Source of the DNA: a virus
Virus record (IMG/VR): IMGVR_UViG_3300043777_000227
Location: 1-52,890 of that record
DNA: 52,890 nucleotides
Strand: one strand, 5' to 3'
A program made the translations under genes and the position numbers. The notes below the pieces were generated by a model. It saw only the letters and a program-made list of their open reading frames with translations, was not told the origin of the DNA and did no database searches. Shown here in pieces: positions 9,250-41,184 of this stretch. Position 1 is the stretch's first letter. Each line of letters begins with the position of its first letter.

Positions 9250-9260
9250 AGAGCCTCTAG

Positions 9261-10148: not shown

Positions 10149-10195
10149 CTAGTCTCCATCCTTGTGAGATTGAGGGTCCGCTTGTGGCGGTACTG

Positions 10196-12669: not shown

Positions 12670-12672
12670 GAA

Positions 12673-12984: not shown

Positions 12985-12995
12985 AGAAATTCTCC

Positions 12996-14330
12996 TTAGA
13001 ATACCGAGCAGTAACTGCCGCGCTTGACGATGAAGTTGTCGGTGCCGGTGGTAGTAAATGCGTAAACGCTGAAAACGCCTGGTGTAGCGTTAGAGGGTTG
13101 CTCAATTGTCCCGTCCAGGGTGGCTTCCCAGATGGTGGTAGCCGCTGAGGGGGTGAACTGTACAACTGATGTTGGCGTGGTGGATGCGAGGTTTTGAAGA
13201 TTACCGGCTGTAAAGGTTGAGGCGCTAATTTCCACAACCCCCATCACGCTTAGGTTGGTTGGAGCGGTGCCGGTAACTCCCACACCGAATTGGTCTACAA
13301 CTGCTGCCGAAGCCTGATCGTACATCAGCCCGCAGTGGAAGCTATAATTAGCTGCCTTGGAAGTGGGGAGTGTGTAGGACAGCCCTGTGATTAGCTGGAG
13401 CGATGCAGAGGTTGAGTCGGTGAAGTCCGAGGTGACGAACACCTTGTTTCCACCAGAGAAAACCTCAGCTGTGGTGATATTTTTAGCGTCGTCAGTGATC
13501 GAGGAGTTTGAGCCGCAGGCACCAGCACCGCCTCCTTTAAAGAGAACATTAGAGGTTAAAGCTGCTGTCATAGCAAACGCTGTGGTTGAGGTGGCGCAGG
13601 CCACACCGCCTGAGGTTAACCCAGAGTTAGTTTCAGTTAGCGCCAGGCTCTTGTTGGTAAGGGACTGAGTGCCGGCTAGGTTGACCAGAGTATCAGTAGC
13701 TGCGGGGATCGTTACGGTGAACACCGACGCGGCTGAAGCTGGAGAGAGGATGATGCCTCCCGTAGCCGTCGAGCTGGCCAGCTCCAAGGTTCCGTTAGAG
13801 GTACCGGGAATTCCCAAGGTTGGGGTTACCGAGAACGAGATAGCCGACGCTGAAGTACCAACAAGCATTGTGCCCTGGGCGGGGACGATCACCGAGCCAG
13901 TTACTACCGAGGCAGCGTTAGTCCAATCCAATAACCCGCTGGCTGCGGTGCCCGGCCAGATATACTCGAAGGCGGTGACCGCTGCAGGACATTCCTCGGT
14001 GATTGAATTGGCCGTGGCGTGACCGTTAGCTGAACCTTGCACGCATAGAAAGTAGCCAGCTGTACTACCACTTGCTTTGAAGCTGGGGGCCGTTATTCCA
14101 CCAGCATCGGTACACGTTAAGACATTAGCTGTGGTGATTCCCTGATCGCACAAGCTTGCTGCGCCGATGGTGGTGGTGCCAGTGGCTAGGGGCAGGAAGC
14201 CGTTGGTTTGGCCTGAAACTGTACCCGATGCCCCAGCAGCTCCTGCACCTCCATTAAATTGGCCCTGTGCAACCGCTAGACTGGTACACAGCACAATTCC
14301 TACTAGAATTGAAAGAAACTTAGTTTTCAT
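12996..14330 (-). CDS. Fibre-like protein with signal peptide
   Basis: 444 residues from the ATG at 14330. A reading ten codons longer would place a polar leader before the signal peptide MKTKFLSILVGIVLCTSLAV, whose cleavage would be near AQG. Gly-rich linker, then Ser/Thr/Ala-rich repeats. Residues about 37-95 (GFLPLATGTTTIGAASLCDQ, ITAPSFKASGSTAGYFL) match a module near the C-terminus of the giant fibre (GFIPKSSSSTIALLAKSALD, MAAPIFTATGTTAGFLDLPQ). The C-terminal ~110 residues look like a compact beta domain (ASLQLITGLSYTLPTSKAAN). Probably a receptor-binding or surface protein. Its start overlaps the preceding gene by 11 nt. Confidence 0.75.
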   Translation of the reverse strand: MKTKFLSILVGIVLCTSLAVAQGQFNGGAGAAGASGTVSGQTNGFLPLATGTTTIGAASLCDQGITTANVLTCTDAGGITAPSFKASGSTAGYFLCVQGSANGHATANSITEECPAAVTAFEYIWPGTAASGLLDWTNAASVVTGSVIVPAQGTMLVGTSASAISFSVTPTLGIPGTSNGTLELASSTATGGIILSPASAASVFTVTIPAATDTLVNLAGTQSLTNKSLALTETNSGLTSGGVACATSTTAFAMTAALTSNVLFKGGGAGACGSNSSITDDAKNITTAEVFSGGNKVFVTSDFTDSTSASLQLITGLSYTLPTSKAANYSFHCGLMYDQASAAVVDQFGVGVTGTAPTNLSVMGVVEISASTFTAGNLQNLASTTPTSVVQFTPSAATTIWEATLDGTIEQPSNATPGVFSVYAFTTTGTDNFIVKRGSYCSVF

Positions 14331-16664: not shown

Positions 16665-17306
16665 TTAGCTAGAGAAGGCGATGATCGCTCCGAAGGAGAT
16701 GGTCACCGCAGAGGTGGTGACTGTGGGGTAGTAAATCGTGAAGCCGGTGGTCGTCACTGCGCCCAGGCTGAGCTTGTTGGTGCCAGTCTGGAACAAAGCT
16801 GCGGCCGTGGAGCTGTCTGAGCCGTTGCCGGCGTAGAACAAGTTCACCCAAACGGGCAGGGCGCCCTTGGTGTCTACAGCGGTTGCGGCGGAGTTGACTT
16901 CGGCCACCACTCCCGAGTTGCTCGCAGCAAAGTAGCTGCCGTTAACCGAGCTAACCGTGAGGTTGGTGACGTTGTTGCCGGAGTTGGTGAAGCCGGTGAC
17001 CGCCACCACATCTCCAACTGCAATGCGGGTAATCGGTCCAAAGCTATAGTAATCGGCATAGGTCGAGGTCGTGGCGTCCACCTTGACCTGGGTGAGGGGC
17101 AGCACGAAGGTGTTTCCAAAGGTCTGCGTGCCGTCAATGAAGCCTACCGCTACTGAAGTGGCGGTAGAGCCTGATAGAATCGTCCCGTAGCCGTAGAGGG
17201 TCTTGGCTAGCGGGCCGCCATTCTGGTCAGCGATTATCTGTCCGCCTAGGGCGGAGGTAGCCGGCTGGCCGATGTAACTAAGATTAACTTGAGCTGATGC
17301 TCCCAT
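16665..17306 (-). CDS. Beta-rich structural protein
   Basis: 213 residues, rich in Thr/Val/Ala/Gly with strands throughout (ATSVAVGFIDGTQTFGNTFV; GDVVAVTGFTNSGNN). No cysteines or enzyme motifs. The start overlaps the glycosyltransferase stop by 23 nt. Together with the next gene it probably encodes abundant virion surface protein, which might be a target of the glycosyltransferase; that link is inference from adjacency only. Confidence 0.7.
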   Translation of the reverse strand: MGASAQVNLSYIGQPATSALGGQIIADQNGGPLAKTLYGYGTILSGSTATSVAVGFIDGTQTFGNTFVLPLTQVKVDATTSTYADYYSFGPITRIAVGDVVAVTGFTNSGNNVTNLTVSSVNGSYFAASNSGVVAEVNSAATAVDTKGALPVWVNLFYAGNGSDSSTAAALFQTGTNKLSLGAVTTTGFTIYYPTVTTSAVTISFGAIIAFSS

Positions 17307-18123
17307 CGGGATTTGTTTCCTTGTTTGTGGGTTGCGTCCGGGAAGGATCGCCGGACGGGTCTATTAAACCGGGAATTTCTTCGCCGGCTTCTCTGGCTCG
17401 GTAGGGCAGGCTGTCTTTAGGCAGCTGGAAGACCCGCGTTGTCGGGGGTCCGGGGTACGCTATGTCCCAGTGGTCGCACAAAATGCCGCCGTGCGCCACT
17501 ATCTTGAAGCCTGCGTGCCTAACCGAATTGCAGAAACTTATGTCTTCGCTCACTACCACTGAGCTGACTGCGGGATCGCACGATTTGACGTCGATCCAGG
17601 GGAACCAAGGCTTGGGGATGTGCTTGAACACCTCGCACTTAATCATCATACAACCCGCGCCCATCCCCGAAACTTCAAAAACTTCCCCTACTCGCCAGTC
17701 CCAAAATGGCCCCAACCCCAATCCCCTGAAGATTACTGGCCCTGGCGGGTCGCATTTAGTCATGTAAATGCCGCCAGCGGCCATTACCTTAGGGTTGTTC
17801 TCCAGCACATAGTGCAATCGGCGGAGAGCATTTGGCGGTGGGATGGTGTCATCGTCCACGAACCAGAGGTACTTGGCCTCGGCTTTGACCGCTTCCTCAG
17901 CGATTAACTCCCTAGCCACCTCGACTGGCCGGTCGTTGATCATCAGCATGCCACAACTCAGATGGGTTGGCGGCGGCTGCATGGACATGGCCACCACCAG
18001 CTCGCGTGGCACCATCTGGCGGTTACTGGCTAGGCCGGTGAGCAGCCCTACCCGATACCCCTCCGGGAAGGCTGCCGGTAACGAGCCCCTCGCTTGCACT
18101 ATCTTCTCTGGCGTCTCTGACAA
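17284..18123 (-). CDS. GT2-type (GT-A fold) glycosyltransferase
   Basis: 279 residues. Acidic nucleotide-sugar/metal motif WFVDDDTIPPPNALRRL at about 86-102 is the DxD-type signature of GT-A enzymes. The middle shows CMMIKCEVFKHI and VVSEDISFCNSVRHAGF (acceptor-side 'ED' motif) as in phage Anp1-like/GT2 proteins. The C-terminus is polar. It would transfer a sugar to virion protein, DNA or host glycan. The start is TTG at 18123 preceded by GGGGGG at good spacing. It overlaps the preceding small gene by about 100 nt in another frame, so a later start cannot be excluded. Confidence 0.85.
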   Translation of the reverse strand: MSETPEKIVQARGSLPAAFPEGYRVGLLTGLASNRQMVPRELVVAMSMQPPPTHLSCGMLMINDRPVEVARELIAEEAVKAEAKYLWFVDDDTIPPPNALRRLHYVLENNPKVMAAGGIYMTKCDPPGPVIFRGLGLGPFWDWRVGEVFEVSGMGAGCMMIKCEVFKHIPKPWFPWIDVKSCDPAVSSVVVSEDISFCNSVRHAGFKIVAHGGILCDHWDIAYPGPPTTRVFQLPKDSLPYRAREAGEEIPGLIDPSGDPSRTQPTNKETNPDGSISSS

Positions 18124-20045: not shown

Positions 20046-21569
20046 CTAGTGGGAATAGCTATTCGATTGGATAAACTTGGCTTTCTCGGCTGGGCTGAGA
20101 ATTAGCTCGCTACCTCGATTGGGTCGAGGATTCTGCGCGCATATATATTGGAAACTGTTCATTAGGTGGTCATTACGCTTGCGGGGCTTGTCCTTGCTAA
20201 GACCCTTCTGGTCGCCTCTAGCAAAGAAATCCCAGACGTAATGGGCGATTTCCCCCTGGAAATCCTTTAGGTCGTCGAAAAAGTATGCCTTTGCATGAGG
20301 CGAAGTCGGCTCAACAGTAGCCTGGATGTACTCACGGGAAGCATTGAGCCCATAGTCTTCTCCAACCACTGCCAGTCTAACTGGTATCTGGGCATCTCGG
20401 TAGAGCTGCTGATTCGTTTTATGTGTCTCGGCATTGCGTTGAGAGCCCCATTTTGGGTCAATTAGCCAGAGGTCGATTCGATCCCCGCCGTTTCGAACCA
20501 GGATATTCTTGGCGTGCTCAGAGACAACAAGGTCTCTTTCATAATACTCTCGATAGAAGTATAGGTCACTGTTAGGCGCCACGGCACACCAGAGACAGGC
20601 AGTTGTTCCAGTGGCAGCGGGGTCAATACATACCACTCTCCGCCAACTTCTAGGAAGGGGGATAGGCTTAATGAGGTGCTTTTTGGGCTCCCATTGGTTA
20701 TAGACAAGGCCTGATCGCTGGATGAACTCGCCATAAAGTCTAGCTTTCTCCTCGTAATGGCCGGCCCATTTCACCTTGAGACGAGTTTTCTCTTCCTCAG
20801 GCACGTAGGGATTGTCCAGCACGCTCAAGTAAACAAAGGCCAAATCCTTTGCCCCAGATTTCCACTCCTCCCACAGGTCGAACACCCACGGCGTTTTCGT
20901 ACCCGAAGCGCAATCTGTTAGCGGCGTGAGGGTTATTAGTATCTTGCCGGCACAATCGACCGTACGTTGATAGCATTCGTCGTAGATTTCGACCTCGGGC
21001 TCTTCGTCAATCCAAACCAAGTCTACGCTAGCCCCTTGGAATTTTTCCCTGCCCGAGTCGGCTGACTTGCAGGTAAGGAGGCTCCCGTTCGTCCCCAGGA
21101 TTTGGTACTCCGAGTCGCTGATCTTTTTCACGAGCGAGGGATCGCTGGGAAATAAAGCTGGATGGTCTTTGCCACGGCGAATCTTTTCGCCCCAAAGGAC
21201 GTCCCTGACGGTTGGAAAGTCCAGCCCAACTACCCAGATTACGTTCGGTGGCTCCGGTATCGGTAGGTCCTTGACCCATTCCCATGCTGGCTCGTCCTTA
21301 AAGTAGTCTTTGCCGAGAAACCACGCTATGGCTATAGCGGCTCCGACCTCGGTCTTGCCGGAGCGATTACCCCCCAACAGCCCAATGACCTTCTTGTCGG
21401 GCGTGAAGGCCTTGAATAGCGCTGGCTGGTTGCCCTCCTTATAAGGCGACCAGTACTTAATATAGCTGGTTTGGCGCTTGTTAGCTTCAACCGCCTCCAG
21501 GATCGCCAAGGCTTCCTGAGAGTCGTAGGCCTCTAGCTCCCGCAAAGCGGCTTCAACTCCGCTCGACAT
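20046..21569 (-). CDS. terL: Terminase large subunit
   Basis: 507 residues. Walker A GGNRSGKT at 66-73, Walker B DLVWIDEEP at about 183-191 and a motor domain to ~280 drive DNA packaging. The RNase H-like nuclease starts at ~310 with VVCIDPAATG (first acidic residue near D316), a second acidic site at WLIDPKW (D371) and the C-terminal RKRNDHLMNSFQYI (acidic residue near 480). All the catalytic elements are therefore present. ATG at 21569 overlaps the upstream gene by 17 nt. It begins the late series with the small subunit two genes upstream. Confidence 0.95.
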   Translation of the reverse strand: MSSGVEAALRELEAYDSQEALAILEAVEANKRQTSYIKYWSPYKEGNQPALFKAFTPDKKVIGLLGGNRSGKTEVGAAIAIAWFLGKDYFKDEPAWEWVKDLPIPEPPNVIWVVGLDFPTVRDVLWGEKIRRGKDHPALFPSDPSLVKKISDSEYQILGTNGSLLTCKSADSGREKFQGASVDLVWIDEEPEVEIYDECYQRTVDCAGKILITLTPLTDCASGTKTPWVFDLWEEWKSGAKDLAFVYLSVLDNPYVPEEEKTRLKVKWAGHYEEKARLYGEFIQRSGLVYNQWEPKKHLIKPIPLPRSWRRVVCIDPAATGTTACLWCAVAPNSDLYFYREYYERDLVVSEHAKNILVRNGGDRIDLWLIDPKWGSQRNAETHKTNQQLYRDAQIPVRLAVVGEDYGLNASREYIQATVEPTSPHAKAYFFDDLKDFQGEIAHYVWDFFARGDQKGLSKDKPRKRNDHLMNSFQYICAQNPRPNRGSELILSPAEKAKFIQSNSYSH

Positions 21570-30257: not shown

Positions 30258-30641
30258 ATGTTTGATTTCCTGCTTCCCAAGCCCGGACCCAAGCTGTTAG
30301 GCCCAGCGCCCAAAGCGGCTGTGGATGACCCCCTGGCAGATAACTATTTCGCCTACTTTGTAGATGCTGGTACCAAGGTCCGGGCTGAGTGCGAATGTGG
30401 CTGCCGCTGCACCTACAGCTTGCGCTATTCGACGCTCAAGGGCATCCTGGACACCGCCCCAATGATCAATATAGCTTACCATGAGCTAGACCCTTGTGAG
30501 GCGGAAGGCGATCTCTGCAAGTACAACTGGATTGACTCAGACGCCTGCTACCGAGAGTTTATAGGCAGTTTCCAGCGCGCCAAGCGTGCTGAGAAGGAGG
30601 CCCAAGATGGAGCAAGGATCGCCACCCAGCCCGCCGTGTAG
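30258..30641 (+). CDS. Cys-rich hypothetical protein with AVDD motif
   Basis: 127 residues. KVRAECECGCRCTYSLRY places four Cys in nine residues (about 46-54), and more Cys lie in DPCEAEGDLCKYNW and DACYREF, suggesting a zinc-bound domain. The N-terminus has LLGPAPKAAVDDPLADN, the AVD[AD] motif seen in four other early proteins. Lys/Glu tail. Overlaps the next gene by 35 nt. Unknown function. Confidence 0.6.
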   Translation: MFDFLLPKPGPKLLGPAPKAAVDDPLADNYFAYFVDAGTKVRAECECGCRCTYSLRYSTLKGILDTAPMINIAYHELDPCEAEGDLCKYNWIDSDACYREFIGSFQRAKRAEKEAQDGARIATQPAV

Positions 30642-30765
30642 CCCAAGGATTAGGCCAGCGGTGGACGCCGAAGAACTGGAGAACGATCTCCAGCTGCTAC
30701 CAGGCGAGTTCAACTGCCTGGCTGGCTACCGGCTCAATGGCTACGAGTTAGGAGGTGAAGGTTGA
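30607..30765 (+). CDS. 52-residue protein ending in Gly-Gly-Glu-Gly, upstream of ligase
   Basis: ATG 30607 with AAGGAGG 7 nt upstream. Disordered Pro/Ser-rich start (EQGSPPSPPCSPR), then RIRPAVDAEELENDLQLLPG and a C-terminus YRLNGYELGGEG. The last codons contain the GGAGGT ribosome site of the next gene, which starts four bases before this stop. A small, acidic, unstructured protein ending in GGEG beside a glutamine-synthetase-fold ligase recalls Pup (ends GGE/GGQ, joined by PafA). The ending could equally be a by-product of the ribosome site. Not a family match. Confidence 0.5.
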   Translation: MEQGSPPSPPCSPRIRPAVDAEELENDLQLLPGEFNCLAGYRLNGYELGGEG

Positions 30766-32090
30766 TAACTCCAGAGGAATTTGACGCACTCCACGCTGAG
30801 CTAGCCAAAGACGCTGAGCCAGCCAAGGAAATTCCCCAGGGCGGCTGGGTTGTAACGGAAAATGGCTCATTGGGACATCGCCAGCCAGGCCAGGACACCT
30901 GGATCAGCCTGTTCTACAAGACCGTTGATGGCGCCAAGGTTCGCTCAGACTACTTCTACCCAACAAACCAACCCTGGAAGCTAGCCAAGCACCAAGGCTT
31001 TACCCTGCCAAAGTTCGCCGGCTTGTTGCCTGAGCTGTGCAAGCGGCTGAATGTCTCGGCGACTTCAGGCACTGACCCAGAAATCTTCGTCCAGGATCGC
31101 TGGGGCGACATTCTCCCGGCTTGGAGTTTCCTGCCCAACAAAGCTGAGGCGTATAAGTTGCCTCGTTGGGAAAATGAGAAGGTGTTTAGGGACTCCGGCC
31201 CGCTATCGGCAGAAGTCAAGGCCAACTCCGTAGCCTACTGGGATGGCTTTCAAGCTGAATTCTCCACGCCAGGAGTGAACTGCCTAGACATCCTCTGCGC
31301 CGAGGTGTTCCACCAGTTGAAGGCGTTGCAAGCCAAGATGCCTTTGGGCTGCAAGCTAAGCCCAGAGAGCACCCTACCAGTAACCCAGCTAGTTCTGGAC
31401 AAGGCTAGCGAGGAGCATGTCGCTCTAGGCTGCAAGCCTTCCCTGAACGCCTATGGGCACAAGGGCATTTGCGTGGAGAATTGCCGGGATTTGCGCCACC
31501 GTTTTGCTGGAGGTCACATCCATTTTGGCCTGGACGAGCAGTTCAAAGCGCCTGAGCAGCTAATTGCTGCCGTCAAGATGATAGACGCGGTGATGGGTGT
31601 AGCCTCGGTGAGCCTGCTGCCCAAGGAATCGCCAATTCGCCGCCGCTACTATGGACTGGCTGGTGAATATCGCACGCCCAGCCATGGACTAGAGTATCGA
31701 GTATTGAGCAACTACTGGCTGCGCTCACCCAAGCTATTCATGCTAACCTTTACGTTGGCCAGAGGCGCCATGCGGTTGGGCCTCAGGGATTTCCGCAAGG
31801 ATTACCAAGCTAGCGACGCCGAGGTGACTGAGTGTATCAACAACCACGATGTGGACTTGGCGTGCAAGCTGATTGATCGGAACCGGGTGATCTACGAGGC
31901 GCTATTGAATGCCTACTGTAACGCCGATGCCAGAGGCGTGGACTATACCCTGGCTATGTTCAAGGGTGGCGTGGACAATTACCTGCCCAGCCAGGATATT
32001 CCGGCGAACTGGCACCTAGACCAACCAACCTATGGATACGCCAACAAGGAGCTGAGCGGGCGATGGGGACTGCACCTAGCAAGCATCTAA
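30762..32090 (+). CDS. COOH.NH2 ligase, phiEco32-like type 2 (copy 1)
   Basis: 442 residues from TTG 30762 (TTGA overlap; GGAGG 5-7 nt upstream). Family hallmarks of the glutamine-synthetase-fold amidoligases: SGTDPEIFVQD (102-112), AEVKANSVAYWDGFQAEF (about 150-167), HRFAGGHIHFG (246-256) and YGLAGEYRTPSHGLEYRVLS (297-316). These supply the acidic and His residues expected for ATP/Mg and substrate. The predicted reaction is ATP-dependent ligation of a carboxylate to an amine; substrates unknown. N-terminal ~95 residues and a C-terminal ~120 are accessory. Two divergent paralogues lie at 34859 and 40072. Confidence 0.85.
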   Translation: MITPEEFDALHAELAKDAEPAKEIPQGGWVVTENGSLGHRQPGQDTWISLFYKTVDGAKVRSDYFYPTNQPWKLAKHQGFTLPKFAGLLPELCKRLNVSATSGTDPEIFVQDRWGDILPAWSFLPNKAEAYKLPRWENEKVFRDSGPLSAEVKANSVAYWDGFQAEFSTPGVNCLDILCAEVFHQLKALQAKMPLGCKLSPESTLPVTQLVLDKASEEHVALGCKPSLNAYGHKGICVENCRDLRHRFAGGHIHFGLDEQFKAPEQLIAAVKMIDAVMGVASVSLLPKESPIRRRYYGLAGEYRTPSHGLEYRVLSNYWLRSPKLFMLTFTLARGAMRLGLRDFRKDYQASDAEVTECINNHDVDLACKLIDRNRVIYEALLNAYCNADARGVDYTLAMFKGGVDNYLPSQDIPANWHLDQPTYGYANKELSGRWGLHLASI

Positions 32091-32353
32091 GCGCTCTGGA
32101 ACTGGACAACCTGCGCCGGCAGCGAGCACGCTGCCCAGCTTGCAATGGCACTGGCCGCCAGCCCGACCAGCTCACGCAGTCCGATGACCGCTTTTGTGAG
32201 CCATGCCACAGCTTTGGCTGGGTGCTGCCCAATGCTAATTGCGCTTGCGGGCGCTCCCCAAATATGGAGCAGGAAGGGATTTTATTTTGTGGCAGGCCAC
32301 CTTGCCTGGAGCGGCTCAAAACCGCCAAGCTAGTGGACCAATATTTGTACTGA
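32063..32353 (+). CDS. Small zinc-binding protein
   Basis: 96 residues, starting 28 nt before the ligase stop in another frame. CPACNGTG (24-31) and CEPCHSFGW (45-53) are DnaJ-type zinc knuckles; CACGRSP and FCGRPPCLER add more Cys. Likely a zinc-ribbon binding protein partnered with the ligase or RNA. Ribosome site is weak. Followed by the long structured non-coding segment. Confidence 0.6.
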   Translation: MGTAPSKHLSALELDNLRRQRARCPACNGTGRQPDQLTQSDDRFCEPCHSFGWVLPNANCACGRSPNMEQEGILFCGRPPCLERLKTAKLVDQYLY

Positions 32354-32718
32354 GTTGCCACATCGAACTTGAGGAAGCATCCAGTTGTCACGCAGCCGCG
32401 CCTGAAGTCTGACAGTGGCCCTAAGGGCCTGGGGGTGAGAACTCCTCGTTTGACACGGGAACACTTTCAGGCACGGTCGGTTGGCGTAGAAGCTAGTTGC
32501 CTCTGTGCGCGACGTAAGCCTGGGTTGGGCCAGCGATAACGCTATATTCGCCTTCGGGTGGATCACTAGCGCGCTGGTATGGACCACGCCTTGCAAAAGG
32601 CGTTCAGGGCTGGGCGTCCGGTTAAACAAGTAGCTAGTCTGCGCCCGTTGACGGTGCCGAGGGAACCGGCATGGACACGGACTGGCGCTGTTTCCTCAGG
32701 AAATTTTCTGGAGGTTGT
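32354..32718 (+). ncRNA. Large structured non-coding RNA A
   Basis: 365 nt without a credible gene and with multiple strong helices: CCTGAAGT/ACTTTCAGG (32401-32408 with 32463-32471) closes a domain holding GGCCC/GGGCC (32417-32421 with 32425-32429) and CTCGT/ACGGG (32445-32449 with 32455-32459). A 15-pair arm (CCAGCG/CGCTGG, CGCTA/TAGCG, CGCC/GGTG; 32530-32577) is capped by a UUCG tetraloop; ACGCCTT/AAGGCGT (32586-32603) has a GCAA loop. GTGCCG/CGGCAT and GGGCG/CGCCC lie further 3'. UUCG and GNRA loops plus long-range pairing argue for a folded RNA. No known class recognised. The next gene's GGAGG is at 32710. Confidence 0.6.
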
Positions 32719-33102
32719 ATGACAGGCTGCTTAGCTGAATCCTTGTATCTGCTGGAAAGCTCATTGAGAACACGCGGCTATAGTGTGTGCAGGATGAATG
32801 GACGAACCGTTCATGTTACAACTTCCCAAGGCGCCAAGTTTGATCTGTCGTTTCTGGATGGAAACCGCCGCGTATTGGTCAGCAATCATGTGTGGGTGCC
32901 GCCAGAGGATCGAGGTAGGGGTGAAGGTAGGCGCTTGCTGAATCTGCGTGAGGTGGTCGCCAGGGAAGCTGGCGTAAACCTACTAATGGCAACTGTGCAT
33001 AATACCAACAAGCCAGAAATCCATTTGCTGTCCACAAGCGGTTGGAAGCGCCTGTTGAATAGGCGTGAAACCAAAGTATCCTTGTGGATTAAAAAGCTCT
33101 AG
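32719..33102 (+). CDS. GNAT-like acetyltransferase
   Basis: 127 residues from ATG 32719 with GGAGG 4 nt upstream; longer readings run into the structured RNA. NHVWVPPEDRGRGEGRRLLN (about 71-90) matches the 'V.P..RG.G.G..L' acetyl-CoA loop of GNAT proteins, followed by LREVVAREAGV and the 'N....l..s.GW.rL' element (NKPEIHLLSTSGWKRLLN). The N-terminal half is short, so the fold may be trimmed. Acyl transfer to an amine would fit the neighbouring amidoligase genes, but the substrate is unknown. Confidence 0.7.
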   Translation: MTGCLAESLYLLESSLRTRGYSVCRMNGRTVHVTTSQGAKFDLSFLDGNRRVLVSNHVWVPPEDRGRGEGRRLLNLREVVAREAGVNLLMATVHNTNKPEIHLLSTSGWKRLLNRRETKVSLWIKKL

Positions 33103-33519
33103 GCGTCGTCCAGCCGGGAGTGGTTGCCGCCTACTGGCGGTGGACCTAACCGAGTGTGGGCACTAAACGCCGAAAAGCGGCGGCGAACAGCTGCCGTTGA
33201 GGGGACCGCTACGGCGGTTCGCAGCGCAAGCTGCTGGGTCGAACATCGCAAGCCAGCCTTGGCCGGTAGGGGGAGACTGGTGCGCGAGCAAAATGTTGGC
33301 AGCTTCCACAACCTGTGTGGAACCAGCTGACTAATCCCGTGGACCCGCTAGGCGAGCTTGGCCAAGGGCTGAAACCCCTTGCCCCGGCGACGACCCTAGC
33401 GACCGAGACCAAAGATAAATTTCCACGGGTTCCTAGCCGGGGATGCACCAGCGCGAAAGCGGGAGGCGCAAGCCTTGAGTGGTGCGGAGGTCCCCGGCAA
33501 AGTTTCTAAGGAGACTAGC
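33103..33519 (+). ncRNA. Large structured non-coding RNA B
   Basis: 417 nt non-coding with many exact helices: CCGCC/GGCGG (33127-33140), CGCCG/CGGCG (33168-33182), GCCGT/ACGGC (33193-33214), GCAGC/GCTGC with a GCAA loop (33221-33234), TTCCACA/TGTGGAA (33304-33322) and CAAGGG/CCCTTG (33363-33381). The 3' domain is a textbook multi-helix junction: GCCGGGGA/TCCCCGGC (33436-33443 with 33491-33498), inside it GCACCA/TGGTGC (33445-33450 with 33480-33485), enclosing CGC-GAAA-GCG and AGGC-GCAA-GCCT hairpins. No tRNA, tmRNA, RNase P or intron core was recognised. The ribosome site of the next gene is at 33508-33513. Confidence 0.6.
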
Positions 33520-34146
33520 TTGGACCTAGTAATAACACCTAGCCGCAGGTTGATTCACCAAGCAGTCTATCCAGCTGGCCAACGCCTGCCGAAATGGCCC
33601 GACAAGCAATATGGCGGCTACCGGCCTTGGGCGCCAGTGGAAACTCGCCGGCATGGGCATGTCATACAAATCGAGCCTAACCGCTTCTCGCACCAAGACG
33701 GCTGGTTCAGCCCGCTGAAGGACAAGCAAGACTCCGGCTCGCTGTTGGAGCTAGCCGGGGGAAATTTGAAATTTGGCGATTATATCTATTGGGTAGGGCA
33801 CAAGGTCCAGCGGGCAAACTTCTCGCTGTGCCGCTGGTGCCACAAGAATTGCTTCGATTATCGAGAGCGCAAGGACCACTTCGACAAGGTGCGCACGGAA
33901 ACCTTCTCGCACGCCAAGCTGTTGGACTTCTCCGCCAAGCTGCTACGGGCTAGGGATTTGTGCGTGAGCTGTGGTTGCCACACCCGCCAGCAGAAATGGG
34001 GCGTGCCTTTGTGCCAAACGCTGAGGTGCATGGAGTACTTTATGTTCGATGTGCACATCCTGGATGGCAAGCTGGTGCAGGAGTGCCAAAACGCCGTGCT
34101 GCGCGATTTGGGACTGGCTGTGGACAAAAGGGTGGTGTGCGTATGA
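33520..34146 (+). CDS. Zinc-binding hypothetical protein in ligase cassette
   Basis: 208 residues from TTG 33520 with AAGGAG 6 nt upstream; a start 15 codons earlier would read through the RNA's 3' helix. CRWCHKNCFDYRERKDHF (about 103-120) and LCVSCGCHTRQQKWG with PLCQTLRC (146-170) provide seven to eight Cys/His for zinc. The N-terminal half is strand-rich and basic (RHGHVIQIEPNRFSHQDGWF). It ends overlapping the next gene. No enzyme family recognised; could recognise a peptide or RNA. Confidence 0.65.
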   Translation: MDLVITPSRRLIHQAVYPAGQRLPKWPDKQYGGYRPWAPVETRRHGHVIQIEPNRFSHQDGWFSPLKDKQDSGSLLELAGGNLKFGDYIYWVGHKVQRANFSLCRWCHKNCFDYRERKDHFDKVRTETFSHAKLLDFSAKLLRARDLCVSCGCHTRQQKWGVPLCQTLRCMEYFMFDVHILDGKLVQECQNAVLRDLGLAVDKRVVCV

Positions 34147-34862
34147 AGCAATTTCACATCGAACGCTACCTAAATCCCAAATGGACTTGGCGGTTGGGCA
34201 GCAAGCCCGATCCATTTCCTGGCCAGTGGCCTACTCGCTTGTTCCTGCGCCATGACGAATCCAAGTTCCTTTATCTGGGCAAGCCCAGTATTCCCCAGGT
34301 CCAGCGCTTCAACCTCCTGGTCCAGAAACTTGGCCTGAACATCTGGGACTGTGCGGTGGAATTCGACCGAGGCGGCGCTGTCTACACCCACACCGGCCAG
34401 AAGGGCACTGCGCATACCGGCAATTTGTTCCAGCTCTACCACCATTGGAACTACCCCGATAGCTTGGCTAGGCACCTGACCATACCGCTACACTGCAAGC
34501 GGCTAGGAGGCCAGTCGGTATACTCACCGTGGCAAACCTTGCCGCCGGGCTATGACGAGGCGTTTCTCCAATGGCTGGCGGACTTTCTGGGTGGCAAGCT
34601 GAAAGCCCCAGCACCTGAGCCGTCCAAGAAAAAAGCTAACCAACTGGAAGAAATCCTAGAGCGCTATGCTCCACCGCTGAGAGCGGCGCAGGCGCGGCCA
34701 GGTGGTATATTCCAAGCCCAGTGGAACGGGCGGGAGATTTTTGGGGGTGGGGTCAATGCACAGCCGGCTCCTGAACCTCAACCAGCTCAGCAGCAAGGCC
34801 GTCGAGCGCTGCCCGATCTAGATGAATGGAATCCACCAGAAATCGTCGAGGTGCGTGATTGA
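34143..34862 (+). CDS. Hypothetical protein with Pro/Gln-rich tail in ligase cassette
   Basis: 239 residues, ATG 34143 overlapping the preceding stop. The first ~160 residues look globular (RLFLRHDESKFLYLGKPSIP; IWDCAVEFDRGGAVYTHTG), the rest is a charged linker and Pro/Gln-rich tail (QPAPEPQPAQQQGRR) ending NPPEIVEVRD. A disordered, carboxylate-rich tail would be accessible to a ligase, so it is a candidate substrate or partner of the ligases; that is inference. Overlaps the next gene by TTGA. Confidence 0.6.
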   Translation: MKQFHIERYLNPKWTWRLGSKPDPFPGQWPTRLFLRHDESKFLYLGKPSIPQVQRFNLLVQKLGLNIWDCAVEFDRGGAVYTHTGQKGTAHTGNLFQLYHHWNYPDSLARHLTIPLHCKRLGGQSVYSPWQTLPPGYDEAFLQWLADFLGGKLKAPAPEPSKKKANQLEEILERYAPPLRAAQARPGGIFQAQWNGREIFGGGVNAQPAPEPQPAQQQGRRALPDLDEWNPPEIVEVRD

Positions 34863-36358
34863 GCGCTTACACCGACCTCCGAGAAGATTTCCGCCAAGCG
34901 CTAGTACTAGGTGGTGTGCGACGAGACGACCACCTCAGCGCCCACTGGCGTGAGCAGCTGCCTAGCCACATCCGAGAGGTCTGGCTCCGGCGCTACTACC
35001 GCCCAGTAGAAAATCCTCTAGCACCCCTGGGCCAGTACGTCAACCATTTCCTGGTGGGTGCTGACCCAGAGTTTAGCCTGGGCATGGATGGTGGGTTGGA
35101 GGACGCCTGCAATCTCAATCTGAAAGCTGGGCTGGCTTGGGGCGCAGATAACAATGGCCGCCTAGCTGAGCTGCGCCCCGTACCCAGCAGGAGCTGCCTA
35201 AGGGTGGTTGCTAGCATAGGCGCTGAGCTGCGCTGGATGTCCTGGTTGCACAAAGGATTGATGAACTACCAGTGGAAATCTGGCGCCTGGACTGGGCGAG
35301 ACGGGCTAGGCGGCCATGTACACTTCGGTCGCAAGAAGAAAACCCTCACCCCCGCAGAAACTGCCGCCTTGGACACTCTCTGCTTCTGGCTGTACCAATC
35401 GGGGATTTTCAACTACGCTGAAGGCAAGGAGCGCTACCAGCGCACTCGCGGGCATGGAGGCTATGGACGCCCAGGGGACATTCGCTGGCAGCTCCACGGA
35501 TGGGAGTACCGAACGCTGCCTAGCTGGCTGGACAGCCCGTGGCTAGCTTATTTCAGCTTGACGCTGAGCAAGCTGGCGGTGTTTGACCCGCAGCTATTGC
35601 CCCGTTTGCACAAGAATCTGGAGTTGGAGTCGCCTTCGCGCATCAAGGACCACCTCTCAGCGCTGCTAGCCTATTACCAGCATCGAGACGACGACGCTGC
35701 CTTGGCTTATGCAATCCTGGTGAGGAGGGATTTCCCGAAGTATGACCCCAGCGATTTCAAGCCGCGCTGGGGCATCTTCGCACCACCGTTGCTAGTACCT
35801 CTAGTTCACATCATCCCTAATAGCGTGGAACCAGCGGAGGTGGAAGTGCGAGAAATGGCCCAAGCCCTGCTAGCCGGCCGTCCACCAGAGCCAGTAAACT
35901 CTCAGCCTACCTGGCATCCGCATCTTCTACCAGTAAACTATGTATATCTCCCGGATATGGTGCAAACGCGCCATGCCCCTGGGCTAGGTGAGCTGATGGT
36001 TGGACTCTGCACCTACGGGGAGGGTGTGCAGGTCCGCTCGCTAGGCGAGCGCCAATCAAGTATCTATATAGGCCAGGATTGGGCAAGGTATCTATCTCGA
36101 AAGCACTGGCAAGAGCTAAAGCTGCGCTTCCCCGACATCAAGTTCTCCCAAGACGAGTCAAATCGCCTGACCTTTACCACAGGCATTGACTACAAGCGCT
36201 ATGGCCGGGAGCTAAAGCGCTGGCTCTGGGAAGGCCAGTTGCCAATCTGGCGCGTCGAGGATGTGCAAGCTGGTAGCTATACCCAATGGCAAGCCTCCAG
36301 AAAGATTCCTGAGGCGCCTAAGGCTAAGCCAGCTGGAAAGTATTCTATCCAACTATGA
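34859..36358 (+). CDS. COOH.NH2 ligase, phiEco32-like type 2 (copy 2)
   Basis: 499 residues from TTG 34859 (TTGA overlap, GAGGTG 5 nt upstream). Core motifs: VGADPEFSLG (66-75), GADNNGRLAELRPVPS (95-110), LGGHVHFGRKK (150-160), GYGRPGDIR (201-209) and HGWEYRTLPSWL (213-224). These match copy 3 much better than copy 1 (shared GYGR.GD.R). The extra C-terminal ~200 residues contain a domain absent from the others (LGERQSSIYIGQDWARYLSR). Predicted ATP-dependent amide ligation; substrates unknown. CTAG occurs 15 times in this gene, about three to four times the chance rate. Confidence 0.85.
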   Translation: MSAYTDLREDFRQALVLGGVRRDDHLSAHWREQLPSHIREVWLRRYYRPVENPLAPLGQYVNHFLVGADPEFSLGMDGGLEDACNLNLKAGLAWGADNNGRLAELRPVPSRSCLRVVASIGAELRWMSWLHKGLMNYQWKSGAWTGRDGLGGHVHFGRKKKTLTPAETAALDTLCFWLYQSGIFNYAEGKERYQRTRGHGGYGRPGDIRWQLHGWEYRTLPSWLDSPWLAYFSLTLSKLAVFDPQLLPRLHKNLELESPSRIKDHLSALLAYYQHRDDDAALAYAILVRRDFPKYDPSDFKPRWGIFAPPLLVPLVHIIPNSVEPAEVEVREMAQALLAGRPPEPVNSQPTWHPHLLPVNYVYLPDMVQTRHAPGLGELMVGLCTYGEGVQVRSLGERQSSIYIGQDWARYLSRKHWQELKLRFPDIKFSQDESNRLTFTTGIDYKRYGRELKRWLWEGQLPIWRVEDVQAGSYTQWQASRKIPEAPKAKPAGKYSIQL

Positions 36359-36374
36359 AAGGTGGTGGTGAACG

Positions 36375-37460
36375 ATGTGCGGCATCGGAGGAATAGTTCG
36401 CTACGGTGAACGGCCCATTCTACCCTGGCAGGTGGAGATGCTAGCCTGTTCGCTGGAGTATCGAGGTAACGACGCTACAGGCCTGGTTGTGCAATTCCAG
36501 GATGGCAGTTTGGAGCTACTTAAGAACCATGAGCCAGCCTGGCAGTTTATGTCAGCCAAGGACACCCAGGAGTGGCTAGCCAAGCAGCTGGACCGGCCAG
36601 AGCACAAGCTGGTGCTGGTCCACACCCGCAAGATGACCAAAGGCAGCCAGTACCAGAACAAGAATAACCACCCGATGTTTGATGGCCAAGCCGCCATCAT
36701 CCACAATGGGGTGATCTCCAATGACGACGACCTATTCAAGTCCCTCCAATTGGAACGGGCTGCCGAGACCGATTCGGACATCATCCGCGCCATTGTGGAC
36801 AAGTGGGGTTTGGATCGCAAGCTAGTAGGCCGGGACGGCAAGTTAACCAAGCTAATTGGCTCAGTGGCCTCAGCAGCAATCCACCCTGGCTACCCACAGA
36901 AGTTGCTCTTGCTGCGGAGCAACAACCCGCTCTACATCGGCACCAACAAAGAGCACATGGCGTTTGCCAGTTGCAAGCGCAGCTGCTTCCTGGTGCTAGG
37001 CAATTGGGTTAAGCGTTTTGGCATTGAGCAGCGAGTCCACGACAACGACCTGGCGTTCATTTCCATGCCTAACCATACTGGCTGGCTGTTGGACCTCTCC
37101 AAGAAGGAGCTGGCTTGGCACGATGAATTCACCGCCTCGCACTACGAGCGCAAGATAGTCTACAACGTCCACAATCCCGATTGGAAGCGCCGCAAGGAAG
37201 AAGCCGAGCGGGCCTTCGACCGAGCACAAAAGCTAGCCGAAGAAGAACGCAAGAAGGAGCCGCCCACCCGCCCTTTAGTCCAGCGTCGTCCGGACTATGT
37301 AGTGTGCCAGGGCGAACTGTCCGGCAAACGCTGTACGACTATTTGCGATCTGCGGGCTCAATCTGTGGAGAAGCCGATATGGAAGATGGCTTGTCCAGAT
37401 TGTGGGACTAACCTGGTGAATATGCCTGCGTGCAATTCCCAAGGCGAGATTATCCAGTAA
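36375..37460 (+). CDS. Class II glutamine amidotransferase (GAT-II)
   Basis: 361 residues, ATG 36375. The N-terminus CGIGGIVRYGERP places the nucleophilic Cys at residue 2, exposed after Met removal as in Ntn amidotransferases. YRGNDATGLV (about 30-39), LVHTRKMTKG (78-87) and AIIHNGVISNDDD (109-121) are the glutamine-binding and catalytic motifs of this fold. It should release ammonia from glutamine for the ligases. The C-terminal ~90 residues add a charged helix and a Cys-rich end (CQGELSGKRCTTICDLR; CPDCGTN) that may bind zinc. Confidence 0.85.
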   Translation: MCGIGGIVRYGERPILPWQVEMLACSLEYRGNDATGLVVQFQDGSLELLKNHEPAWQFMSAKDTQEWLAKQLDRPEHKLVLVHTRKMTKGSQYQNKNNHPMFDGQAAIIHNGVISNDDDLFKSLQLERAAETDSDIIRAIVDKWGLDRKLVGRDGKLTKLIGSVASAAIHPGYPQKLLLLRSNNPLYIGTNKEHMAFASCKRSCFLVLGNWVKRFGIEQRVHDNDLAFISMPNHTGWLLDLSKKELAWHDEFTASHYERKIVYNVHNPDWKRRKEEAERAFDRAQKLAEEERKKEPPTRPLVQRRPDYVVCQGELSGKRCTTICDLRAQSVEKPIWKMACPDCGTNLVNMPACNSQGEIIQ

Positions 37461-37475
37461 TTTCTAGGAGGCCAA

Positions 37476-38306
37476 GTGCCAAATTATATTATCCGTCGGT
37501 TGAAGCTAGGCCGCCGGAGCTGTAAAGGAATTCGCATCGCCAGTCGCCATCTTCGCCGCTCAATCCGCCATGATCGGGGAGTGCCTCAGGATGCTGAGTG
37601 GGTCTTTCGCTGGGGCTGCACGGCCCGCATACCCCACGACCGGGTGGTAAACTCCCCGGAGGCTATCAACTGCGTCAACAACAAAGCCGGTTTCCGCGAG
37701 AAACTCCAAGAAGCCGGACTATGCCCACAGACTTGGTTTAATTATGTGGATGTTACATTCCCCTGCATCGTGCGTCCTATGTTTCATGCCCAGGGCAAGA
37801 AGCTCTGGAAGTGTGACAACATCCAGCAATTAGCTCTGGCCGCAGATCGCGCAGGCCAAGGTTGGTACGCCAGCCAGTTGATTAATAAGACCGCCGAGTA
37901 CCGCGTCCTGGTCGCTCAGGGTCGAGCTGTTTGGGTGGTCAAGAAGATTCCAGCTAACCCTCAGGCTATCGCCTGGAATGTGAACCAAGGCGGTCGCTTT
38001 GAGAATATCTCCTGGGACAATTGGCCGCTCAAGGTGGTCAAGACCGCCATCCAAGCTTGGAAGCTTAGCGGCCTGGATTTCGGCGGGGTGGACATTATGG
38101 AGGACGCCGACGGCAAATGCTATGTGCTGGAAATCAACTCAGCGCCTAGCCAGACCTCGCCCTACCGCCAGCAATGTATGGCTAAGGTGTTTGATTGGAT
38201 TGTTGAGCACAACTCCTGCAAGGAAATCCCCTTGCCTGAGGAAAAGGGTGGCTATAGGAAATTTATCCACCCAGCAATCTCCCAGGATGCTCGACTAGGA
38301 GCCTAG
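37476..38306 (+). CDS. ATP-grasp ligase
   Basis: 276 residues from GTG 37476 with TAGGAGG 6 nt upstream. FPCIVRPMFHAQGKKLW (about 90-107) is the ATP-binding lysine/glycine loop; ASQLINKTAEYRVLV follows; GLDFGGVDIMEDADGKCYVL (about 200-220) with EINSAPS is the catalytic Mg-binding E-x-N end of ATP-grasp enzymes. The N-terminal ~60 residues are basic. It would activate a carboxylate as acyl-phosphate and join it to an amine, alongside the GS-fold ligases. Phage cassettes pairing these with GAT-II were predicted by Aravind and colleagues. Confidence 0.8.
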   Translation: MPNYIIRRLKLGRRSCKGIRIASRHLRRSIRHDRGVPQDAEWVFRWGCTARIPHDRVVNSPEAINCVNNKAGFREKLQEAGLCPQTWFNYVDVTFPCIVRPMFHAQGKKLWKCDNIQQLALAADRAGQGWYASQLINKTAEYRVLVAQGRAVWVVKKIPANPQAIAWNVNQGGRFENISWDNWPLKVVKTAIQAWKLSGLDFGGVDIMEDADGKCYVLEINSAPSQTSPYRQQCMAKVFDWIVEHNSCKEIPLPEEKGGYRKFIHPAISQDARLGA

Positions 38307-38307
38307 C

Positions 38308-38511
38308 ATGGCCCAAGCACCTCTGTGTTTCATATGTGGTGGGCGAACGGGCAATCGCGCCATCATAACCAACATGCGAACCCGCCGGGGCTTCTGCCGG
38401 AAGTGTAACGAAATGCCTGGATTCTGGCGCATGTTCTGGGACTCGCGTTCAGAAGTTAAACCAGCTGTAGACGACCCTCTAGGAAAGGAGCCAGAAAACC
38501 TTGCCAAGTAG
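38308..38511 (+). CDS. Small zinc-ribbon protein with AVDD motif
   Basis: 67 residues. CFICGGRT (7-14) and CRKCNEM (30-36) form a four-Cys zinc ribbon. The tail contains VKPAVDDPLGKEPENLAK, a member of the AVD[AD] motif group. It starts one base after the ATP-grasp stop, so it is probably co-translated with it, and its 3' end overlaps the next gene. Unknown function. Confidence 0.6.
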   Translation: MAQAPLCFICGGRTGNRAIITNMRTRRGFCRKCNEMPGFWRMFWDSRSEVKPAVDDPLGKEPENLAK

Positions 38512-39085
38512 AATTCGTGTGATGTACGCCACCCGAGACGGGGCGACTTTGTACGGCAAGAAGGTACTAACCGAGTTCTTGAAGTGGGCAGCGACCAATC
38601 CGGCTACGGCCAAGTATGTTGCTGCACCCGGCTGGAAAACTCTGCCCCTCTGGAAGCGCCTGCAAACCCTCCAGAAGCTTGGCAACTGGACCGGCAAGCT
38701 GACCATTTGGCGAGAGCGCCGAGGCGTCCACGCCAAGGAGAGCCATGCCATAGCCACCTGCAAGATACGTGGCCTGCGGCGGAAGCGTGCTAAGGAAGCC
38801 CAGCCAGTCAATCCCTGGGGCCAGTATATGGTCAACTGGCAATGGAACCGAGACGCGCTAGACAGCTCAGAGGGATTTCGCATTATTTTGCAACGTGCCA
38901 TCCTCGCTGGGGACCAGTTCGCTGAAGTTGGCGGGGTTCCTTACAAAATAAACCGCTATGTTACCATCCTAAAGCCAGTAGCCGGGCGTGCAGGCTACAA
39001 GAAATTCCGCATGCCTCAAATGGAATATCGCGTAGCGGGTGAGGCTCCTGCGCCTGGCCATCCCCAGGTAGGAATCTGGCGCTAG
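38501..39085 (+). CDS. Hypothetical protein in ligase cassette
   Basis: 194 residues from TTG 38501; AAGGAG lies 10 nt upstream, so a slightly later ATG (38522) is also possible. Basic and Trp-rich (GKLTIWRERRGVHAKESHAI; RLQTLQKLGNWTGKLTI), with an alpha/beta C-terminus. No cofactor motif seen. Its place between the ATP-grasp and sigma-like genes is the only hint of role. Confidence 0.55.
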   Translation: MPSRIRVMYATRDGATLYGKKVLTEFLKWAATNPATAKYVAAPGWKTLPLWKRLQTLQKLGNWTGKLTIWRERRGVHAKESHAIATCKIRGLRRKRAKEAQPVNPWGQYMVNWQWNRDALDSSEGFRIILQRAILAGDQFAEVGGVPYKINRYVTILKPVAGRAGYKKFRMPQMEYRVAGEAPAPGHPQVGIWR

Positions 39086-39086
39086 G

Positions 39087-39302
39087 ATGCTTGGAACCAG
39101 CTACATGGCCACTTTGCACGCTCCAGGTGGCCCTCTGCGCCATCGCTGTCTATTACACGACGCCATCTCACCGGGCAAGGGGCTAGTATTGGTGCAGGAT
39201 GGCGACCACACCTACTGGTCTTGCGAGAAGTGCTTGAATAAGCTACTGGCTTGGCACTGTAAGCCAGCTATAGTTACTGAGGGGGCTCATGGAGAAACCT
39301 GA
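39087..39302 (+). CDS. Small Cys/His protein
   Basis: 71 residues, ATG 39087 immediately after the previous stop. HRCLLHDAISPGKG, then WSCEKCLNKLLAWHCKPAIV gives three Cys and several His (CxxC about 47-50), compatible with a zinc site. Ends overlapping the sigma-like gene by 14 nt. No family recognised. Confidence 0.55.
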   Translation: MLGTSYMATLHAPGGPLRHRCLLHDAISPGKGLVLVQDGDHTYWSCEKCLNKLLAWHCKPAIVTEGAHGET

Positions 39303-39876
39303 TTACCAACTGGACGAGGACGCCTACTGGCTATGGGCCAAGGCTAGTGGCTTCGAAAGGGACAGAGCCGCTGAGGCGCTATACCCGGTGCTCCTGCGCT
39401 ATGCCCGGAGCATCCTCTGGCGCCGACTGGACTGGCGAGAGCGCCACGCCGTCTATGAGCTAGCCGACCAAGCAGTAGCGCTAGCCATGACCTCGAAAAC
39501 TTACCTCGGCCAGAGCAAGTTTACTACCTGGTTCTTTAGTGTCGTGGACAACCTGGCTAAGCGCTGGCTAGACAGGGAGAAGCGCCATCTCCGCCAGCAA
39601 GTTGACGCCGAGATAGGTGAAATGTCCGCTCCAGATAATCCCCTGGACGCCCGCATCATGGTAGACCAGCTTCGCTCCCGATTAGAACCCCTCGACCAGG
39701 AGGTGTTCGATTTCAAATTGCTAGGTACTCAATTTCTGCCAGAGGACGGCGAAGCGAGCCGCCAGTTTTGCCAAGAACGCTCCTGGCGTTATATAGACTC
39801 CTCGAACAACGAACTGGAGAACCGATGGAAGCAGCTAAAGAAGCGCATCCGCGAACAGCATTTGGCCGCGAGCTAG
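39289..39876 (+). CDS. ECF-type sigma-factor-like protein
   Basis: 195 residues, ATG 39289 with GGGGG 5-6 nt upstream. Region 2-like part: RAAEALYPVLLRYARSILWR (about 26-45), then YLGQSKFTTWFFSVVDNLAK (71-90) and RWLDREKRHLR, matching the 'F.tWl..Ia.N...r..R' core of ECF sigma factors. Region 4-like part: RLEPLDQEVFDFKLLGTQFL (131-150) and an HTH-like SWRYIDSSNNELENRWKQL (about 165-183). It could redirect host RNA polymerase to middle or late phage promoters. phiEco32, which carries the same ligase family, also encodes an ECF-like sigma factor. Confidence 0.7.
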   Translation: MEKPDYQLDEDAYWLWAKASGFERDRAAEALYPVLLRYARSILWRRLDWRERHAVYELADQAVALAMTSKTYLGQSKFTTWFFSVVDNLAKRWLDREKRHLRQQVDAEIGEMSAPDNPLDARIMVDQLRSRLEPLDQEVFDFKLLGTQFLPEDGEASRQFCQERSWRYIDSSNNELENRWKQLKKRIREQHLAAS

Positions 39877-40079
39877 TTCGCTATGCCTCCGATGTGCAGG
39901 ACCTGGCGGAAATGTCCGAAGCGCTCCGAGCTAATTTAATTAGCCAAGCCCGCTTTGCCCAACTACTCCGCCAGCAAGGCGTCCAAGCAAAGCTGGCCGC
40001 TAACTTGCTGCACTCGGTGGTGGCCTGCTTGCAGAAGGCGCAGGAGCAATTGGAATTTTTGGGGTATACGGATGGTTAA
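39825..40079 (+). CDS. Helical protein behind sigma-like gene
   Basis: 84 residues from ATG 39825 with GGAG 6 nt upstream, starting 52 nt inside the sigma-like gene in another frame. All helix (LVRYASDVQDLAEMSEALRA; KLAANLLHSVVACLQKAQEQ). Out-of-frame start inside a sigma-like gene and coupling suggest a partner or anti-sigma function, but that is inference only. Ends overlapping ligase copy 3 by eight bases. Confidence 0.55.
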   Translation: MEAAKEAHPRTAFGRELVRYASDVQDLAEMSEALRANLISQARFAQLLRQQGVQAKLAANLLHSVVACLQKAQEQLEFLGYTDG

Positions 40080-41184
40080 TTACTATTATGAAGGACAGCT
40101 TGGCAACGGTGTGTACTCAACGACTGGTGGACTTCTGGGCAACTACCCTCAACCCGCTGCCCCAGCCGCTCCAGAGCCACAATTCTGGGACGAGCCAGTG
40201 CCCGGCCAGCCGCCCATCCGGCACCTTCTAGAGCCAGGCCAGCCTCCACCTACAGAGAGAGAACTCACTGACCTACAAAGACTTCAAGTAGACCGCCCGG
40301 AATACGGTTTGCAGTGGTATGGACCAGGCGCTAGGTATTTATATTATATAGCCAGACAAGCACCACCGTCGGAGCCGATTCCCCAAGAAGTAGACGAGGA
40401 CGCTAGCGAAATGACTACCCGATTGAAATTGCTAAATCCCTTCAAGATAGGCGCCGATCCAGAATTCGTCGCCTTGAACCCCGATGGATCGCTGTGTATG
40501 ACTGGATTGCCGCACGATGGGCCAGTAGGCCACGACCACGGCGGCAGAGTGCTAGAGCTGCGGCCTGGCCCTAGCCGCTGGGCGCTGAGGGTGGTGCGCA
40601 ACATGCAAACCCTCCTGCACTCCAAGCCCCTAGCTAAGTTCTCCGACAAGCGATGGCGTGCTGGTGGTATGGCCAAGCATGGCCAACAGGTTGAGCCGCT
40701 AGGCGGGCATATACACTTCGATGTGCCAGCGTATAACAACATCGGTGTGTTCAGTCCAGCCGCACTTGCTGTGGTCAAGGCTTGCGACCAGCTAACCCGC
40801 TGCTTTGAATCGCTGGAGATATTACATAGCCAAGAGGCCAATGCTCGCCGACATGGCCAGCACGGCTACGGTCGCCTAGGCGACGTTAGAGACTGCGATG
40901 GCCGGTTGGAGTACCGCACACCAATCTCCTGGCTCTACAGCCCGCAGGTGGCCTATTGGGTGCTGACTGGCTACAAGCTGGCCGCTGCCGCGCCAGAAAG
41001 CACCCGAGACCTACAGCCCGCTAATGGCAGCTGGGCAGCTCTGAAGGATTGGTACCAGCAATTTTCTGGCAAGGACATTGACGCCGAAAGGGCGTTGGAA
41101 AAGCTTGCGGCTAGGGGGTTGAAAGCTGTGCAAGGCGATCCCGAAGCCGACATCAAGGAGACATGGAGAGAACTTGCTTTATGA
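40072..41184 (+). CDS. COOH.NH2 ligase, phiEco32-like type 2 (copy 3)
   Basis: 370 residues from ATG 40072; the frame continues upstream but only through the previous gene. A Pro-rich N-terminal arm (about 25-65, PQPAAPAAPEPQFWDEPVPG) precedes the core: KIGADPEFVALN (125-136), HDHGGRVLELRPGPS (154-168), PLGGHIHFDVP (209-219), GYGRLGDVR (265-273) and RLEYRTPISWL (278-288). Closest to copy 2. Predicted amide ligase, with an unusual Pro-rich arm that may dock partners. Followed by an ATGA overlap. Confidence 0.85.
   Translation: MVNYYYEGQLGNGVYSTTGGLLGNYPQPAAPAAPEPQFWDEPVPGQPPIRHLLEPGQPPPTERELTDLQRLQVDRPEYGLQWYGPGARYLYYIARQAPPSEPIPQEVDEDASEMTTRLKLLNPFKIGADPEFVALNPDGSLCMTGLPHDGPVGHDHGGRVLELRPGPSRWALRVVRNMQTLLHSKPLAKFSDKRWRAGGMAKHGQQVEPLGGHIHFDVPAYNNIGVFSPAALAVVKACDQLTRCFESLEILHSQEANARRHGQHGYGRLGDVRDCDGRLEYRTPISWLYSPQVAYWVLTGYKLAAAAPESTRDLQPANGSWAALKDWYQQFSGKDIDAERALEKLAARGLKAVQGDPEADIKETWRELAL

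Follow-up and report, generated by a model that had tools for sequence, protein, structure and literature searches.

A phage amidoligase cassette with a swapped second ligase

Iyer et al. reportedly predicted an amidoligase cassette in phages in 2009, and Hardies et al. are said to have predicted a podoviral peptidoglycan modification cassette in 2013. The window analysed here, a metagenomic IMG/VR virus record of 52,890 bases (IMGVR_UViG_3300043777_000227), carries a phage amidoligase cassette of this kind, as a first-pass annotation made from the letters alone had recognised, with more ligases than usual. The kind of cassette is already known; new is the variant, in which the second ligase is swapped and an extra third ligase is often present. 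The locus is read as a rebuilt, clade-wide variant of the 'peptidoglycan modification' type that most likely serves an amide-linked modification of the cell envelope during infection (probability about 0.6).

The 'peptidoglycan modification cassette' has seven genes and is hypothesised to prevent superinfection (PMC5498523; also PMC10580990); its genes are listed in PMC3890496, and it appears also in PMC11945000. It is described in LUZ24-, Pa11- and RIO-1-like podoviruses, and its function is given only as a prediction. Known carriers are RIO-1, PSA-HP1, LUZ24/PaP3/tf, PA11/O4, CW02 and phiEco32. Among cultured phages, clusters were found in Alcaligenes phage QDWS535, Pseudomonas phages O4, Bjorn and tf, Zobellviridae phage T5S1, Salinivibrio phage CW02 and Pseudoalteromonas phage RIO-1. 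They comprise a PF14395 ligase, a protein of ~160-205 aa, a PF12224-type amidoligase, a class II glutamine amidotransferase (GAT-II), an ATP-grasp enzyme and usually a γ-glutamyl cyclotransferase (GGCT); they lie near primase/helicase or polymerase genes, and their order and accessories vary. Lig1-type ligases are widespread, with about 300 phage records that have one, Pseudomonas, Escherichia and Vibrio phages among them; a search of papers found no product of these cassettes.

The variant cassette

The cassette genes of the window are the following (PF14395, COOH-NH2_lig, phiEco32-like COOH.NH2 ligase-type 2, has a cut-off of 25 bits; GS, glutamine synthetase; GCS, γ-glutamylcysteine synthetase).

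30762..32090, plus strand: lig1, COOH.NH2 ligase of the GCS/GS fold; PF14395 33.1 bits, PHROG 3815 E 1e-30, tree and motifs
32063..32353, plus strand: zn, small DnaJ-like zinc-finger protein, CPxC..CxxC..CxCGR..C..C
32671..33102, plus strand: GNAT acetyltransferase-like protein, motif A RGRGEG; PF00583 24.3 bits (cut-off 20.7), family alignment
33475..34146, plus strand: u1, zinc-binding protein with two Cys/His clusters (CRxC..H; CVxC..WGVPxC..C)
34143..34862, plus strand: u2, protein without family assignment, motifs FPGxxPTR ... YxGKP ... EFDR
34859..36358, plus strand: lig2, second PF14395 lineage, 58.4 bits; tree, predicted GS/GCS fold, C-terminal extension
36375..37460, plus strand: GAT-II with N-terminal nucleophile (Cys2), MCGIGG start and C-terminal four-Cys zinc ribbon; PF13522 55 bits
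37476..38306, plus strand: ATP-grasp, RimK-like ligase, LEINSAP motif; PF08443 38 bits, PHROG 2599 E 2e-23
38501..39085, plus strand: u3, protein without family assignment, sporadically conserved
39289..39876, plus strand: probable sigma-70 family (ECF-like) factor; orthologues and synteny
40072..41184, plus strand: lig3, third PF14395 lineage, 74.7 bits; sister of lig2, short form without C-terminal extension

The three GS-fold amide ligases, the ATP-grasp enzyme, the Cys2 amidotransferase and the GNAT-like protein of the first-pass annotation are thus all borne out by family profiles, and these enzyme class assignments are practically certain. A six-frame PF14395 search of the whole window contig gave exactly three places, those of lig1, lig2 and lig3, and 0/14 control genomes matched.

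The variant set consists of 22 contigs, the window and 21 IMG/VR contigs, likewise metagenomic, collected from relatives of lig1 and lig2 and by clustering of the surrounding genes. Their recurrent order is lig1 – zn – (GGCT) – (GNAT) – u1 – (u2) – lig2 – GAT-II – ATP-grasp – (u3) – sigma – (lig3), with the positions of GGCT and GNAT shifting somewhat. Lig2, GAT-II, u1 and zn (the last by profile) are present in 22/22 contigs and ATP-grasp in 21/22, the exception (L051) ending before its position. GNAT-like genes occur in 13/22 and GGCT in 11 of the window's 21 relatives. PF12224 (Amidoligase_2) was found in 0/22 variant contigs, and the same search matched 5/5 cultured-phage records. The class I glutamine amidotransferase/C26 peptidase (PF07722) was found in 0/19 variant contigs tested; it is present in O4 and T5S1, not in tf.

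Three PF14395 ligases are present in 14/22 contigs, and all 14 also have u2 (weakly in L050). Elsewhere u2 was found only in the fragment L051, which stops short of the lig3 position; the five lig3-less contigs long enough to cover that position lack u2, as do two shorter ones. Since most of the sequences matched by the u2 profile had also gone into building it, only L035 and L050 are independent matches. Because the two-ligase contigs also cluster together in the lig2 tree, the co-occurrence of lig3 and u2 may represent a single gain or loss and not repeated co-selection.

Terminase and portal proteins are 55-67% and 50-59% identical, respectively, to those of the window in nearly all contigs tested, and by this measure the 22 contigs belong to one phage clade. 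Between the window and eleven aligned relatives, lig2 identity is only 32-39%. A tblastn search with lig2 gave no match in 50,697 phage records; a scan of 84,980 species genomes with patterns from the lig2 alignment gave none either, the patterns being short conserved ones that would miss distant relatives. Single-sequence scans of viral contigs with lig2, lig3 and GAT had no matches, and alignments were needed.

Motifs, lineages and fold of the ligases

The coordinates given in the first-pass annotation are correct. Lig1 starts at TTG 30762, behind AGGAGGTGA. The open reading frame of lig3 is listed as 39955/40072, and ATG 40072 is taken as the start. The motifs are TDPE / QAE / GGHIH / EYR in lig1, ADPE / AELR / GGHVH / EYR in lig2 and ADPE / LELR / GGHIH / EYR in lig3; DPE, the second Glu, GGHxH and EYR are thus intact in each of the window copies. 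As a set, DPE, second Glu, GGHxH and ExR fit what a GS/GCS-type active site would be expected to show. Among homologues, DPE and EYR are kept in 18/18 for lig1 and 13/13 for lig3 (HxH in 12/13), and DPE, Glu, HxH and EYR in 18/19 for lig2. Clear exceptions are GGHLT in lig1 of L034 and GGHVW in lig3 of L040. In G003 (L006 17228-18634; L048 7827-9236) lig2 has lost both DPE and GGHxH, its reading frame is intact and a complete lig3 lies alongside; this lig2 is likely a pseudoenzyme.

A maximum-likelihood tree of 35 ligases splits lig2 and lig3 from all lig1-type sequences (100/100), lig3 and lig2 each forming a group of its own (99/92 and 89/78, respectively). The variant's lig1 falls together with giant-phage lig1, and known phage PF14395 ligases join them at a greater distance. 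In profile comparison lig2 matches lig1 with 97% probability and the PF12224-type with 0.4%. Because of the tree and the profile comparison, lig2 is placed in a PF14395 lineage, although it occupies the PF12224 position; a diverged Amidoligase_2 is ruled out by the profiles. To judge from the tree, lig1, lig2 and lig3 are three old lineages, and a recent triplication of a single ligase is ruled out by their separation. The 'three ligase copies' of the first-pass annotation are therefore correct in number, and not copies of one thing: lig1 stands on one side and the sister pair lig2/lig3 on the other.

Lig1-type genes were also seen in other arrangements. In the giant-phage contigs L011 (432,844 bases; 9521-14086) and L009 (446,541 bases; 7448-11062), lig1-type PF14395 ligases stand in tandem, three in the former and two in the latter. 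A long protein of 340-351 aa that includes a GGCT domain comes next, a PF12224 gene lies ~27-31 kb away, and no PF13522 GAT-II was found in either contig. L053 (2678-10620), binned in a Thaumarchaeota metagenome-assembled genome, carries a cluster of lig1, PF12224-type, GAT and ATP-grasp genes, and could be a virus contig or a mis-binning.

The first-pass annotation had proposed structure prediction as a check, and for lig2 the outcome agrees with a GS-type fold. The AlphaFold2 model from the lig2 alignment has pTM 0.61 and mean pLDDT 62, with the core (~60-340) better than the rest. It matches Dop, PafA, YbdK, plant and E. coli γ-glutamylcysteine synthetases and glutamine synthetases at Z 13.9 to 8.5 over ~175-265 residues; the core (about residues 60-350) aligns with Dop/PafA, YbdK and γ-glutamylcysteine synthetase at Z about 11-14, and Foldseek alone returns the same families (E about 0.002-0.01). 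The model supports a carboxylate-amine ligase fold, which by itself does not tell the substrate.

Other genes and position of the cassette

The nucleophile Cys of GAT-II is present in 18/19 contigs checked, and the C-terminal four-Cys ribbon is conserved in 7 aligned sequences; the LExN motif of ATP-grasp is found in 19/19 aligned. The sigma factor lies immediately upstream of lig3 in most contigs bearing lig3. Its first-pass assignment is supported through the orthologues at the same position, which pass the Sigma70_r2 cut-off (36.6 bits in L048; regions 2 and 4 in L040); the window copy alone is weak (Sigma70_r2 E 0.085, below cut-off). A longer reading frame for u2, beginning at 33960, overlaps u1. 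The predicted structure of u1 is too poor for use (pLDDT 46). No similarity links u1 to the ~185 aa protein found in classical cassettes, and the two were therefore not equated. Further very small Cys-rich reading frames, beyond zn and u1, lie at 38308-38511 and 39087-39302.

Two GC-rich gaps without a convincing gene, 32354-32670 and 33100-33480, are only moderately more stable when folded than shuffled sequence (z -2.65 and -2.08), and an Rfam search of both gave no credible match. The two structured RNAs that the first-pass annotation had counted among the parts of the system are thus unsupported.

The left part of the window holds structural genes on the minus strand:

8239-9249, minus strand: major head protein
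10579-12669, minus strand: portal
20046-21569, minus strand: terminase

Among them, at 17284-18123 (minus strand), is a glycosyltransferase-2-like protein marginally below the Pfam cut-off. The right part, on the plus strand, holds early and replication genes; the cassette sits in this early arm, with a PD-(D/E)XK-type exonuclease, Sak4, DNA polymerase and helicase downstream.

Proposed pathway and alternatives

The envelope reading is preferred because the ligases, GAT-II, ATP-grasp and GNAT belong to families scoring above cut-off, with catalytic motifs and a predicted lig2 fold to match, and because gene order is conserved in the 22 contigs and the same logic is met in the cassettes of cultured phages. 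That the cassette genes serve one shared pathway is very probable; that its target is the cell envelope, argued by analogy, has about even odds. The pathway would have several steps, joining carboxylates to amines at the expense of ATP. Lig1, lig2 and ATP-grasp would each form one amide bond, and lig3 with u2 a further one in the larger subtype, giving three to four in total. GAT-II, encoded behind lig2 in every contig and as a rule close to it, would feed lig2 ammonia or open or cleave an amide. GGCT, where present, would remove a γ-glutamyl group, GNAT may acetylate an amine of the product, and the sigma factor would time expression of downstream genes. The target would most likely be the peptidoglycan stem peptide or another envelope polymer, altered during infection in a way that would block competing phages or lysins.

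Several points weigh against this reading. The chemistry may differ from that of the classical cassette, since lig2 and lig3 fall outside the PF12224 family. The best structural matches of lig2, Dop and PafA, act on protein, with a small lead over YbdK and γ-glutamylcysteine synthetase. No GGCT (PF06094 or PF13772) was found in the window; the gene could in principle lie outside, because the window may be incomplete, although the entire cassette is covered. No cell-wall genes were recognised adjoining the cassette in the window. In the literature searched, no experiments on the function of any such cassette were found, and the peptidoglycan target is a repeated prediction.

A small-molecule pathway, with synthesis and turnover of a γ-glutamyl or glutathione-like compound or a modified amino acid, would account for the joint presence of a GCS-fold ligase, ATP-grasp and GGCT in many relatives, which mimics the γ-glutamyl cycle, and a glutaredoxin adjoins the cassette of RIO-1. 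It is nevertheless rather unlikely: it would call for fewer ligases, the window and half of the relatives lack GGCT, and the conserved families of the variant include no recognised redox gene. Protein tagging would have the ligases couple an amino acid or a small protein to proteins of the host or the phage, on the model of PafA with Pup and of RimK with glutamate on S6. It draws on the Dop and PafA matches (Z 13-14), the RimK-like ATP-grasp and the several small proteins (zn, u1, u2) between the enzymes. The lead in Z is just 1-2, however, and the C-termini of zn, u1 and u2 have no conserved Glu/Gln or other Pup/LysW-type tail, which rules out a LysW/Pup-like carrier among the small zinc proteins; tagging is considered unlikely.

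Still less is expected of a proposal that makes lig2 and lig3 a new pair of GS-fold ligases, forming a catalytic unit with u2 as substrate or scaffold for protein-directed amide conjugation distinct from the classical cassette, in which a paralogue can turn into a pseudoenzyme subunit, G003 being an example. Amide-linked modification of nucleotides or DNA might be suggested by the place of the cassette among replication genes, but this position is also the rule for the known cassettes, and the window genes searched include no recognised base-hypermodification enzyme, which leaves such a modification very improbable.

The variant amounts to a natural experiment. Lig1, GAT-II and ATP-grasp are kept when the second ligase is swapped, GGCT and GNAT are optional, and lig3 and u2 travel together; the pathway is therefore narrowed to a testable core of four enzymes.

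Comparison with known systems

At the level of the ligases, all three window sequences fall within PF14395. Lig1 groups with the known phage members and is the counterpart of the single PF14395 ligase of the podoviral cassettes, whereas lig2 and lig3 form a sister pair of their own, apart from known members. Compared with PafA/Dop, YbdK and γ-glutamylcysteine synthetase, lig2 has a similar predicted core fold and residues (DPE, E, HxH, ExR) that fit a GS-type site, but only 7-12% identity and an extra C-terminal region.

At the level of the cassette, the podoviral and variant forms share an early cluster, located beside primase/polymerase, that unites a PF14395 ligase with GAT-II and a RimK-like ATP-grasp; GGCT is often included, and a sigma factor, in the window a probable one, lies nearby. 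The podoviral cassette has a PF12224 second ligase, whereas the variant has lig2 in its place. Class I GAT/C26 peptidase accompanies part of the podoviral cassettes and none of the variant contigs tested, and where the former have the ~185 aa protein the latter have two conserved zinc proteins, zn and u1. Only the variant has the third ligase, lig3, with u2, and its representative in the window is without GGCT.

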